Of a stretch of 64,000 nucleotides of DNA, positions 16,410-20,391 are shown one piece after another. This DNA comes from Burkholderia sp. HI2500 (GTDB lineage: Bacteria > Pseudomonadota > Gammaproteobacteria > Burkholderiales > Burkholderiaceae). The number at the start of each line of letters is the position of its first letter. Position 1 is the first letter of the stretch. Location: NCBI RefSeq assembly GCF_002223055.1, contig NZ_NKFL01000004.1, forward strand, positions 1-64,000, given 5' to 3'. The position numbers and the translations under genes were made by a program. Under the pieces are notes generated by a model. It saw nothing but the letters and a program-made list of their open reading frames with translations, was not told the origin of the DNA and ran no database searches.

Positions 16410-17689
16410 GCTGGTCCGATCGCCTCGTCTCCCGTTTCAACGATCGTCGCGACACCGGCGGGAATGCCGCGGGCGGCCGCGTCGCGTCGGCCACGCGCGC
16501 CGCGACGGGCGGCCTCGCGAGCGTCGTCAACGGCGTGCGCCCGAGCCGTTCGCGGATGCTCGACTTCGACTACTCGCTGCTGTGGGTCGCGATCGCGCTG
16601 CTCGGGCTCGGCGTCGTGATGGTGTATTCGGCGTCGATCGCGATGCCCGATTCGCCGAAATATGCGTCGTATCACGATTACGCATTCCTGATGCGCCACT
16701 GCATCTCGCTCGCCGTCGCGTTCATCGCGGCGGTGATCGCGTTCCGCGTGCCGGTGTCGACGTGGGACAAATACGCGCCGCAACTCTTCCTGATCGCGCT
16801 CGTCGGCCTCGTGATCGTGCTGATCCCGCACGTCGGCAAGGGCGTGAACGGTGCGCGCCGCTGGATTCCGCTCGGCATCACGAACATGCAGCCGTCGGAA
16901 ATCATGAAGCTCGCGGTGACGATCTACGCGGCGAACTACACGGTGCGCAAGCAGGAATACATGCAGAGCTTCGCCAAGGGCTTCCTGCCGATGGCGTTCG
17001 CGGTCGGCCTGGTCGGTGCGCTGCTGCTGCTCGAGCCGGACATGGGCGCGTTCATGGTGGTCGCAGCGATCGCGATGGGCGTGCTGTTCCTCGGCGGCGT
17101 GAACGGCAAGCTGTTCGGCGGCCTCGTCGCGACCGCGATCGGCACCTTCACGATGCTGGTGTGGCTGTCGCCGTGGCGTCGCGAGCGGATCTTCGCGTAC
17201 CTCGATCCGTGGGACGAGCGCTACGCGCAGGGCAAGGCGTACCAGCTCACGCACTCGCTGATCGCATTCGGCCGCGGCGAGTGGTTCGGTGTCGGCCTCG
17301 GCGGCAGCGTCGAGAAGCTGAACTACCTGCCGGAAGCGCATACCGACTTCATCCTCGCGGTGATCGGCGAGGAGCTCGGTTTCGTCGGCGTGCTGGTCGT
17401 GATCCTGCTGTTCTACTGGATCGTGCGCCGCGCGTTCGAGATCGGCCGCCAGGCGCTCGCACTCGATCGCACGTTCGCGGGCCTGATGGCGAAGGGTATC
17501 GGCATCTGGTTCGGCGCGCAGACCTTCATCAACATGGGCGTGAACCTCGGGCTGCTGCCGACCAAGGGCCTGACGCTGCCGCTCGTGAGCTACGGCGGCT
17601 CGGGCATTCTGCTGAACTGCGTCGCGCTCGCGGTGCTGCTGCGGGTCGACTACGAAAATCGCGTACTGATGCGGGGAGGGAAGGTATGA
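16406..17689 (+). CDS. ftsW: Septal peptidoglycan glycosyltransferase FtsW (SEDS family)
   Basis: A 427-residue SEDS polymerase with about ten membrane helices that polymerises lipid II at the septum with FtsI. The first ~50 residues are a basic, cytoplasmic extension before helix 1. Catalytic-loop and family signatures are present: [20 protein letters not shown] near residues 310-329 and PLVSYGGSG near 392-400. The ATG at 16406 overlaps the murD stop and is preceded by AAAGGAG. The last six residues (MRGGKV) and the ATGA stop are duplicated 125 bp downstream, see the repeat entry. Confidence 0.96.
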
Positions 17690-17816
17690 CCTCCCCGCGT
17701 CAGTACGCGATTTCGGTGAAGGCTAACTTCGTGCGCGAAGCGCGCGAAGTTAAGCGAAGCGGCCGTAGCCAAAACATTCGTTCAGTCTTGCCGATGCGGG
17801 GAGGGAAGGTATGACC
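17668..17816. repeat. 125-bp insertion with duplicated ftsW-murG junction and inverted copy
   Basis: A perfect 24-bp direct repeat covers 17668-17691 and 17793-17816. Each copy holds the end of an MRGGKV frame, the ribosome site GGGAGGG and an ATGACC. Right after the first copy, 17691-17713 is a 23-bp inverted copy (one mismatch, a G-T wobble) of 17656-17678 in ftsW. The middle contains a second stem, 13 bp with one mismatch, around TTCGTGCGCGAAGCGCGCGAA at about 17729-17757. The layout suggests an inserted palindromic element or a template-switch duplication at a former ATGA overlap. Confidence 0.85.
17686..17814 (+). CDS. Bridging short frame between ftsW and murG (42 codons)
   Basis: This frame begins on the ATG that overlaps the ftsW stop and ends on a TGA that overlaps the murG ATG, so stop/start coupling is kept on both sides. 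The product starts [10 protein letters not shown] and ends MRGGKV, identical to the FtsW C-terminus because of the direct repeat. It is basic (many Arg and Lys), and no family is recognised. It has the same GGGAGGG ribosome site that murG has in the second copy. It may be translated only to carry ribosomes to murG; a stable product is not shown. Confidence 0.4.
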
Positions 17817-18914
17817 GCGTCGCAACGCACGCTGATGGTGATGGCAGGCGGCACCGGGGGCCACGTGTTCCCGGGGCTCGCGGTCGCGCACCGGATGGAA
17901 GCGGCGGGCTGGCGCGTCGTGTGGCTCGGCAATCCGGCCGGGATGGAAGCGACGCTCGTGCCGAAGCACGGCATTCCGATGGAATACGTGCGGTTCGGCG
18001 GGCTGCGCGGCAAGGGTTTGAAGACGAAGCTGACGCTGCCGTTCAACCTGCTGCGCGCATGCGGGCAGAGCCTCGCCGCGCTGCGCCGCGTGCGGCCCGA
18101 CGTCGTGCTCGGGATGGGCGGCTACATCACGTTCCCGGCGGGCGTGATGACCGCGCTGTCGGGCCGTCCGCTCGTGCTGCATGAACAGAATTCGATCGCG
18201 GGCCTGACGAACAAGGTGCTCGCGAAATTCGCGAAACGCGTGCTCGTCGCGTTCCCCGGCGCGCTGCCGCACGCGGAATGGACAGGTAACCCGATTCGCG
18301 CGGAACTTGCCGGCACGCAAGCGCCCAAAGCACGCTATGCATCGCGCAGCGGCCCGCTGAACGTGCTGGTCGTCGGCGGCAGCCTCGGGGCGGCCGCGCT
18401 GAATGAAGTCGTGCCGCGCGCGCTGGCGATGCTGGCGCCGGGCGAACGCCCGCGCATCGTGCACCAGGCCGGCGCGAAGCACATCGAAGCATTGAAGGCG
18501 AATTACGAAGCGGCCGGTTTCGCGGCCGGCGAAGACGTGCGGCTCGTGCCGTTCATCGACGACATGGCGGCCGCGTATGCGGCGGCGGATCTCGTGATCT
18601 GCCGGTCGGGCGCGATGACGGTGTCGGAGATCGCGGCGGTGGGCGTGGCGGCGCTGTTCGTGCCGTTCCCGTACGCGGTCGACGATCACCAGACGAGCAA
18701 CGCCGCGTTCCTCGCCGATGCGGGCGCGGCCGTGCTGGTGCAACAACGCGACCTGTCGGCGGAACTGCTTGCCGACTGGCTGCGCGGCCAGTCGCGGGCA
18801 TCGCTCGCGGACATGGCGGAACGTTCGCGCTCGCTGGCGAAGCCCGAGGCCACCGACGAAGTCGCGCGCGTGTGCGCGAAGGCGGCCGGCGCGAACCTGG
18901 AACAACTTAAATGA
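17811..18914 (+). CDS. murG: UDP-GlcNAc:lipid I N-acetylglucosaminyltransferase
   Basis: A 367-residue GT28 glycosyltransferase at the inner membrane face that converts lipid I to lipid II. The Gly-rich motif GGTGGH is at residues 13-18. [12 protein letters not shown] near 124-135, the second Gly-rich loop [13 protein letters not shown] near 187-199, and [14 protein letters not shown] near 284-297 are MurG signatures. The start lies in the second copy of the junction repeat, and its stop overlaps the ATG of another short bridging frame. Confidence 0.97.
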
Positions 18915-18997
18915 AACAACCCCCACGCTCACTTCGTTCGCTGCCCCCCGAGGGGGCGGTCAGCCTCCTTGGGGCGGCCCGGCGGAGGCTGACATGA
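18911..18997 (+). CDS. Bridging short frame between murG and murC (28 codons)
   Basis: It starts on the ATG that overlaps the murG stop and ends on a TGA that overlaps the murC start. The translation begins [10 protein letters not shown] and ends RRRLT, a basic Pro/Arg-rich peptide with no known relatives recalled. The whole frame lies in the inserted repeat. Ribosomes reading it would melt the stem that hides the murC ribosome site, so a coupling role is plausible. A stable peptide product is doubtful. Confidence 0.4.
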
Positions 18998-19001
18998 AAC
19001 A
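18911..19001. repeat. 83-bp insertion with duplicated murG-murC junction and two hairpins
   Basis: ATGAAACA occurs at 18911-18918 and again at 18994-19001, flanking an insert of 83 bp. Inside are two perfect stems: GCCCCC/GGGGGC (18943-18948 and 18952-18957) and GTCAGCCTCC/GGAGGCTGAC (18959-18968 and 18984-18993). The sequence class (CCCCCACGCTCACTTCGTTC followed by G/C-rich stems) resembles dispersed intergenic repeats recalled from betaproteobacterial genomes; that likeness needs a search. The second stem ends on the base before the murC ATG and contains its GGAGG ribosome site. Confidence 0.8.
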
Positions 19002-20391
19002 CATCGTCAAACACATTCATTTCGTCGGGATCGGCGGCGCGGGCATGAGCGGCATCGCCGAAGTGCTTGTCAACCTCGGTTACGAGGTCAGCGGCTCGGA
19101 CCTGTCGCGCAACGCGGTGACCGATCGCCTCCAGGCGCTCGGCGCGCGGATCGCGATCGGCCACGACGCGGCGAACATCGAGGGCGCGAACGCGGTCGTC
19201 GTGTCGACGGCCGTGCGTTCGGACAACCCGGAAGTGCTGGCCGCGCGCGCGCAGCGCGTGCCGATCGTGCAGCGTGCGGTGATGCTGGCGGAGCTGATGC
19301 GCCTGAAGCAGGGCATCGCGATCGCCGGCACCCACGGCAAGACCACGACGACGAGCCTCGTCGCGAGCGTGCTCGCGGCGGGCGGGCTCGATCCGACCTT
19401 CGTGATCGGCGGGCGCCTGATCAGCGCCGGCGCGAACGCGCGGCTTGGCACGGGCGACTTCATCGTCGCCGAGGCCGACGAGTCGGACGCATCGTTCCTG
19501 AACCTGTATCCGGTGATCGAAGTCATCACGAACATCGACGCCGACCACATGGACACCTACGGCCACGATTTCGCGCGGCTCAAGCAGGCGTTCATCGAAT
19601 TCACGCAGCGCCTGCCGTTCTACGGCAGCGCGGTCGTGTGCGTCGACGATCCGAACGTGCGGCAGATCATCCCGTTCATTTCGAAGCCGGTCGTGCGCTA
19701 CGGGCTGTCGCCGGACGCGCAGGTGCGCGCCGAAGACATCGATGCACGCGACGGCCGCATGCATTTCACGGTGATCCGCGAAGGGCGCGCGCCGCTCGCG
19801 GTCGTGCTGAACATGCCGGGCCTGCACAACGTGCAGAACGCGCTCGCGGCGATCGCGATCGCGACCGATCTCGGCGTGTCGGACGACGCGATCCAGCTGG
19901 CGCTCGCGGAATTCAACGGCGTCGGCCGGCGCTTCCAGCGCTATGGCGACGTGCCGACCGCGGACGGCGGCCAGTACACGCTGATCGACGACTACGGCCA
20001 TCACCCGGTCGAGATGGCCGCGACGATCGCGGCCGCGCGCGGCGCGTTCCCGGGCCGCCGCCTCGTGCTGGCGTTCCAGCCGCACCGCTACACGCGTACC
20101 CGCGACTGCTTCGACGATTTCGTCAACGTGCTGTCGACGGTCGACGCGCTGGTGCTGACCGAAGTCTATGCGGCGGGCGAGGCGGCGATCTCGACCGCCA
20201 ACGGCGACGCGCTGTCGCGTGCGTTGCGCGCGGTGGGGAAGGTTGACCCGGTGTTCGTCGCGACGGTCGACGACGTGCCGGACGCATTGGCGAAGGTCGC
20301 GCAGAACGGCGACGTGGTGATCACGATGGGCGCGGGTTCGATCGGCGGCGTGCCGGCGAAGGTTGCGCAGCACACTCAACAGAAGGCATGA
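18994..20391 (+). CDS. murC: UDP-MurNAc-L-alanine ligase
   Basis: A 465-residue Mur ligase that adds L-alanine to UDP-MurNAc, the first peptide step. The start [20 protein letters not shown] includes the Gly-rich UDP-sugar site ([14 protein letters not shown] at about 12-25). The ATP motif GTHGKTTTT starts at residue 112, and [10 protein letters not shown] near 331-340 is a family signature. GGAGG precedes the ATG by 5 nt but lies within a stem-loop. The frame is open upstream, but the family start and the ribosome site fix 18994. ddlB follows after 1 bp. Confidence 0.97.

Follow-up and report, generated by a model that had tools for sequence, protein, structure and literature searches.

Two unrelated inserts with bridging reading frames at overlapping dcw genes of Burkholderia, one of them a member of a dispersed repeat family found mostly at gene starts

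Mycobacterial interspersed repetitive units (MIRUs) lie in tandem copies in the same orientation as the genes, and REP elements are extragenic and untranslated. According to a passage of a 2025 review, MIRUs are short repeats that appear to be mobile; they insert at start codons, and their open reading frame (ORF) is coupled to the gene at −4 nt (PMC12548453, citing Supply et al. 1997). On coupling, the same source states that efficiency is highest when the distance is short and that translation can open stems located at the downstream start (PMC12548453); a passage of another paper states that overlaps or very short distances are required for coupling (PMC10666635). Rickettsia palindromic elements (RPEs) are described in a further paper as palindromic repeats, some 150 bp long, that keep to the reading frame of the host gene (PMC10969869).

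Here, we compare these systems with two inserts in the dcw operon of Burkholderia sp. HI2500, a strain with a genome of 8.26 Mb. The window, i.e. the whole stretch of 64,000 nucleotides that was analysed, contains murD, ftsW, murG, murC, ddl, ftsQ and ftsA, recognised by sequence, with 125 additional bp at the ftsW/murG junction (insert J1) and 83 at murG/murC (insert J2). Both inserts are, in our judgement, likely to be translated coupling cassettes with a stem at the relay point, J2 being dispersed, mostly to gene starts, and J1 residing at ftsW/murG.

J2 resembles MIRUs as a short interspersed repeat found at many genomic places, located at start codons and, by position, endowed with its own ORF coupled to the gene at −4 spacing; J1, one weak uninspected match apart, is confined to a single site within the genus and departs from MIRUs in this respect. 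The cassettes also differ from MIRUs in belonging to another phylum and in having, on the Burkholderiales side, a covarying stem at the start codon, which holds the SD in Burkholderia. They are classed as working like MIRUs and not as MIRUs, the comparison being with a published description. RPEs are found inside ORFs, whereas J2 is mostly a separate cistron for which in-frame fusions are a minority: most units do not lie in frame inside a host ORF, the exceptions being L005, L007, L171, L187, L246 and L328. With REP/BIME elements and MITEs, J2 has in common that it is small, palindromic, dispersed DNA, its 83-nt unit being too short for a transposase gene; it differs from REP elements in that most J2 units read lie in sense at gene starts. 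Finally, both cassette ends in the window show the junction type of ATGA termination-reinitiation pairs, except that in this case an insert supplies the upstream cistron and thereby doubles the overlap.

The kind, a MIRU-like coupled repeat, is already known, since the review describes MIRUs in like terms in the passage concerned (PMC12548453); the Burkholderiales family, its start-codon stem and the joint change with ftsW appear to be new. None of these three was found in print in the open literature, and no description of the Burkholderiales element was recognised among open-access papers, subscription papers being mostly outside the scope of this search.

The ftsW/murG and murG/murC junctions

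Each insert is bounded by an ATGA at both ends (Table 1). The ftsW stop (17687-17689) lies within ATGA 17686-17689, on which the J1 frame opens, and the stop of this frame falls within ATGA 17811-17814, the murG start, at an offset of 125. The murG stop lies within ATGA 18911-18914, and the J2 frame runs from there to a stop within ATGA 18994-18997, the murC start, at an offset of 83. The first-pass annotation had read these junctions as two independent, stop-free insertions that retain ATGA coupling through bridging frames of 42 and 28 codons. The ORF coordinates bear this out: both added lengths are 2 modulo 3 and both frames are open. The two cassettes are unrelated. By position, stop and start at the cassette ends overlap or stand a few nucleotides apart, as in termination-reinitiation. 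Among 65 genomes of the genus and 80 named relatives, two samples that share some strains, both junctions are mostly simple ATGA overlaps, and the inserts are therefore real. The ftsW/murG junction is filled in 12 of the 65 genus genomes, one further genome (locus L108) being unscorable, and murG/murC is filled in seven.

Table 1. Positions in the window of the two inserts, their stems and the adjoining genes
Feature	Position	Strand	Basis
J1 stem, 5' arm, formed by the 3' end of the ftsW coding sequence and including most of the SD-like GGGGAGGG (17673-17680)	17654..17679	+	covariation
24-nt direct repeat, copy 1: SD, ftsW stop and start of bridging frame	17668..17691	+	sequence
J1 bridging mini-ORF, 42 codons, ATGA to ATGA	17686..17814	+	ORF list; relatives
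J1 stem, 3' arm, within the insert	17690..17714	+	predicted stem and covariation
J1 inner hairpin, CTAACTTCG...CGAAGTTAAG	17723..17754	+	predicted; uncounted
24-nt direct repeat, copy 2: SD and murG start	17793..17816	+	sequence
murG	17811..18914	+	ORF and sequence
J2 unit, member of the dispersed repeat, model R1 116.5 bits	18911..18993	+	profile match
J2 mini-ORF, 28 codons, ATGA to ATGA	18911..18997	+	ORF list
J2 G+C hairpin, GCCCCC CGA GGGGGC	18943..18957	+	covariation, weak within Burkholderia
J2 start-abutting stem, 5' arm GTCAGCCTCC, including anti-SD CCTCC	18959..18968	+	covariation
J2 start-abutting stem, 3' arm GGAGGCTGAC: SD GGAGG (18984-18988) and TGA, adjoining the murC ATG	18984..18993	+	covariation; GGAGG count
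murC	18994..20391	+	ORF and junctions of relatives

The J1 stem joins host and insert, CCTCCCC (17690-17696) in its 3' arm facing the SD of the bridging frame. Over 25 distinct J1 rows, 92.5% of the cells of the pairing between the ftsW 3' end and the insert were paired, against at most 88% in shuffles, and 55 cells were doubly changed, against at most 28 in shuffled and 11 in slid alignments. Two other counts gave no excess over shuffles, namely doubly changed pairs (6, the shuffle maximum being 6) and extra pair types (24, with a shuffle maximum of 26). The same positions in 77 distinct empty sites, used as a control, were 55.4% paired, with six doubly changed pairs and 23 doubly changed cells. 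The variable ftsW positions within the stem are synonymous by eye (third positions of Asn, Arg and Val codons, first position of a Leu codon). These synonymous sites of a core gene seem to be tied to the RNA stem of the neighbouring insert, and ftsW is offered here as an apparent case of such a tie. The inner hairpin is retained with altered arms in other genera, as judged by eye and uncounted.

Across the family, J1 is patchy at ftsW/murG. All 22 J1 rows of one set, in which some strains or species are present twice, get to murG via ATGA hops; their lengths are 125, 77, 98 or 128 nt for single units, with one insert of 203 nt read as a single frame and one of 250 nt made of two coupled units. 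Locus L123 holds a tandem pair of J1 units, both coupled by position. In other genera of the family, the site is occupied by single units (113, 116 or 77 nt), by 113-nt pairs or by arrays with a 114-nt unit that are read in one frame, and their 14 loci with both ftsW and murG all finish on the murG ATGA (L391, L393-L404, L406; the upstream side of L399 is unreadable). Over genus and family, single J1 units measure 77, 98, 113, 116, 125 or 128 nt, all 2 modulo 3.

On a murG tree, from which loci L009-L025 were omitted and which includes some strains twice, the 20 J1-filled rows among 127 require 18 state changes. J1 is a cassette of the ftsW/murG site, gained or lost there many times, and loss through the 24-nt direct repeats is plausible. 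A dispersed J1 repeat was considered and rejected: the genus search returned this single site and one weak, uninspected match elsewhere, and the strong matches of the family search, which scored four candidates per genome and left further weak matches uninspected, were again at ftsW/murG. One weaker match in another genus (L405, about 1501-1562) is a J1-like core outside this junction.

A dispersed family of J2 units at gene starts

J2 has 11 matches in the source genome, fragments included, and its family is present in 57 of the 65 Burkholderia genomes. In a sample of 200 genomes from the whole order Burkholderiales, model R1 matches in at least 25, source genome included, under stricter filters that lose weak matches. 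Named records with the family belong to Burkholderia (5), Paraburkholderia (4), Variovorax (3), Acidovorax (1) and Azoarcus (1). A census was made of 100 regions outside the source genome, the best matches listed in order of E-value with near rows merged, and eight from the source genome. It omitted three murG/murC rows already sampled and one short-contig row, weaker matches remained outside it, and with the 83-nt unit as its query it leans towards 83 nt. The J2 copies are related, and unit counts are not independent.

Grouped by downstream gene, the census comes to 34 loci among the best matches listed. Ten downstream proteins were scanned, of which six (dCTP deaminase, guanylate kinase, XdhC, D-alanine ligase, PurK and HisH) exceed the curated threshold of a suitable NCBIfam model and four (an oxidoreductase, an ABC ATPase, one protein resembling Hsp15 and a small iron-sulphur-like one) fall short of theirs; units thus stand at the starts of dcd, gmk, xdhC, ddl, purK, hisH and others. 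The nine murG/murC rows all bridge, with inserts of 83, 98 or 104 nt whose middles differ. At dcd, 11 of the 30 loci of the genus search are filled, 17 are empty and two lack a readable flank; the census added seven filled loci, three of them places already counted. The dcd inserts stand exactly before the ATG, and all filled ones measure 83 or 155 nt and end on ATGA. No close upstream gene was seen at dcd, and J2 units are therefore not limited to overlapping gene pairs. Insertion at the start codon, as described for MIRUs, is apparent from the empty and filled dcd sites and from the murG and murC junctions. The exception is L328 (1501-1555), on a plasmid of Acidovorax temperans, in which a J2-family core lies in frame inside pgk and not at a gene start.

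In Azoarcus sp. KH32C, a J2 unit links a kinase stop to the cheB start with ATGA at both ends, and in a genome of another family (G084, locus L354) a J2-family unit bridges an apparent ftsW/murG pair, identified by eye, which is the J1 site. The murC/ddl junction also holds J2 units in two other Burkholderia genomes (L182, 1566-1648; L248, 1545-1627), and three successive dcw junctions can therefore be occupied across the genus. Tandem J2 arrays with an 83-nt period are, by position, chains of coupled mini-ORFs. One genome of the genus (G016) contains unusually many near-identical J2 units, which suggests that the spread there is recent.

The lengths of J2 in the genus (62, 65, 83, 98, 104, 113, 131, 155 and 203 nt) are all 2 modulo 3; exceptions to this rule, J1 and J2 taken together, are 82 (twice), 84, 103, 130 and 132 nt and the one-frame arrays of 78- or 114-nt units. 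Among the best matches listed, 100 of the 113 units parsed in 100 loci stop on the next ATGA; the remaining 13 stop 4 nt before a start (4) or just after it (4), are startless at the end (4) or represent a parsing artefact (1). The small ORF at −4 spacing known from MIRUs is thus found by position in these 100 of 113 J2 units and in 22 of 22 J1 rows. Successive stop-start hops lead to a frame of at least 60 codons in 97 of the 108 J2 loci (best matches listed and source genome). Five loci are true in-frame fusions from the unit start (L005, L007, L171, L187, L246), three (L195, L228, L275) were scored as fused solely since a long mini-ORF passes the 60-codon rule, and three are unscored (L181, L210, L255), L181 nonetheless having a bridging unit. 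At L187 (about 1588-1680), the unit end has no start codon and the mini-ORF continues in frame into the downstream gene.

Counted by downstream gene among the best matches listed, 22 of the 34 loci have an ATGA stop and 25 are reached by hops only. ATGA starts are mildly enriched: they account for 22 of the 25 loci with an ATG start and for 50 of the 83 such genes in the background (p 0.014), which is one B. multivorans plasmid (99 genes, 83 with ATG) and not a chromosome. ATGA preference was not retained as strong evidence, weakened as it is by this 60% background.

A pattern search for genus units of 52-144 nt that left out the 83-nt class recovered 21, some shared with the main census. The units of 104 (9), 131 (6), 113 (1) and 65 nt (1) are in phase. 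Out of phase, the units of 103 and 82 nt (2) stop at −4, the one of 132 nt fuses in frame with the gene, and a unit of 84 nt reads in frame into a neighbouring unit. Such units still lead to the next start, and therefore keeping phase is not by itself decisive. In 93 of 100 distinct units, related as these copies are, all three sense frames of the J2 core are open, against 34% of shuffles. Several longer units (L185, L195, L220, L228, L288, L292) contain nested inserts, about 48 and 72 nt long and both multiples of three, that look palindromic by eye. At L256 and L275, units without an ATG of their own repeat in one frame and form a longer mini-ORF (54 or 80 codons), which stops on the ATGA belonging to a frame of 365 codons.

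Outside the genus, 54 of 59 matches were scored, four repeat places and one weak neighbouring unit in L374 having been dropped; two of the 54 (L367, L368) come from the source genome, which leaves 52. By a crude rule, 34 of these bridge: the stop precedes a start by 4 nt in 16 and lies on ATGA in 10, and eight bridge in another way. The 18 others comprise 10 startless by the rule, two of which stop on the ATGA of the next unit, three without a unit ORF, four in frame with a long ORF and one other. The length-phase rule is looser outside the genus, a stop 4 nt before the start being commoner there than the ATGA overlap.

J2 units span ATGAAAC... to ...CGGAGGCTGAC, and the start codon follows mostly directly 3'. 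In Burkholderia units, the stem formed by columns 49-58 and 74-83 has 95.3% of its cells paired and seven of its ten pairs doubly changed, with 22 doubly changed cells (at most seven in shuffles and 13 when slid); keeping one unit per locus (27 loci) leaves five pairs and seven cells. A second covariation count, taken on 43 sequences and both J2 helices jointly, was equalled in none of 500 shuffles. In a model-fitted alignment of 54 distinct matches, nearly all of which come from other families, each of the ten stem pairs is doubly changed, and both helices together give 233 doubly changed cells. The score is 0.605, compared with 0.140 for shuffled and no more than 0.111 for slid alignments. 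The G+C hairpin has one of six pairs doubly changed in the genus, which is weak, and four of six in matches mostly from other families. The energy-minimum fold of the unit was rejected as the kept structure, with two of 25 pairs doubly changed, no more than in shuffles. GGAGG lies inside the 3' arm in 97 of 100 distinct 83-nt Burkholderia units. Several other families have no SD in the stem, and SD masking is therefore not general; what is general is the stem next to the start codon, whose 3' arm often includes a TGA.

A relay of ribosomes and the alternatives

From these sequences we infer the following relay. Each cassette would add a short cistron that opens on the stop of the upstream gene and closes on the start of the next one, so that ribosomes would be handed on from ftsW to a mini-ORF, to murG, to a second mini-ORF and to murC. 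At the relay point, a stem would hold back uncoupled initiation until opened by an arriving ribosome. In J1 this stem would cover the start of its own mini-ORF and be built in part of ftsW codons; in J2 it would stand directly before the murC start with the SD in its 3' arm. J2 would spread as a repeat landing at start codons. The first-pass annotation had proposed selection for unbroken coupling in this operon. The family pattern backs coupling; the restriction to the operon did not hold, with J2 units at the starts of dcd, gmk, xdhC, ddl, purK and hisH. Its proposal to collect insertions across genomes and look for an excess of phase-preserving cases was followed in part, and the outcome favours coupling. 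A MIRU-like life style would then also exist in Burkholderiales, and the many natural filled and empty pairs of one junction, with one, two or more relay units, let two models of coupling, stem opening and reinitiation, be tested directly.

The inserts might instead be selfish repeats merely tolerated at gene starts, whose open frames and well-placed stops leave the expression of the operon unchanged, whose stems are DNA hairpins for mobility and which bring the host no gain. This is a serious competitor that we stop just short of calling probable; it has coupling itself in common with the relay reading, and the two estimates do not exclude each other or add up to certainty. Dispersal of J2, its tandem arrays and the near-identical copies of G016 fit such repeats, as does the patchy presence of the cassettes, and MIRUs are described much alike in the review passage (PMC12548453). 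The covarying J2 stem could serve DNA mobility rather than RNA coupling. However, this stem mostly adjoins the start codon, and one arm of the J1 stem is host ftsW coding sequence that varies jointly with the insert, which is hard to explain by mobility alone. We put forward with more hesitation, as a thought we incline to doubt, that Burkholderiales possess at least two unrelated classes of portable structured mini-cistron relays selected as coupling devices. Gain, loss and tandem change of these relays would tune the protein ratios of neighbouring genes, cell-wall enzymes included, and in one class the synonymous codons of the host would have co-evolved with the insert to keep the stem.

Transcription attenuators or terminators between operon genes are suggested by the G+C-rich hairpins, but the scan of 17600-19100 returned no terminator-like site, Rfam 15 gave no match at E up to 1 over 17300-19300, and units precede murC, ddl, dcd and gmk; we hold this explanation improbable. 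A promoter scan of this stretch of the window found none.

That the mini-ORFs encode functional small proteins is still less probable. Frames are retained across genera and J1 peptides look alike from one genus to another. On the other side, neither peptide matches Pfam, the J2 length classes tolerate unrelated middles, and J2 variability by codon position is 0.053, 0.066 and 0.047, figures that include the stems and concern J2 alone. Coding constraint on the J2 peptide was rejected on this ground. Six protein-database entries correspond to the J1 peptide, one of them probably that of the window, none named beyond hypothetical. Since substitutions show no codon-position bias, what is kept in J2 looks to be the frame and the stem and not the peptide, in agreement with the annotation's suggestion that the peptides may be no more than ribosome carriers.

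The annotation had also reasoned that a random insert keeps the phase one time in three and that this happened twice. The argument fails because the J2 repeat is copied with its phase built in and J1 was repeatedly gained or lost at one site, which does not make two random draws; two insertion events alone are weak evidence, and the family pattern is stronger. Pure chance, with both inserts happening to keep phase and lack stops, is scarcely credible: high G+C favours open frames, one shuffled J2-core frame being open in 71% of shuffles, but the family-wide frame pattern and the covariation contradict it.
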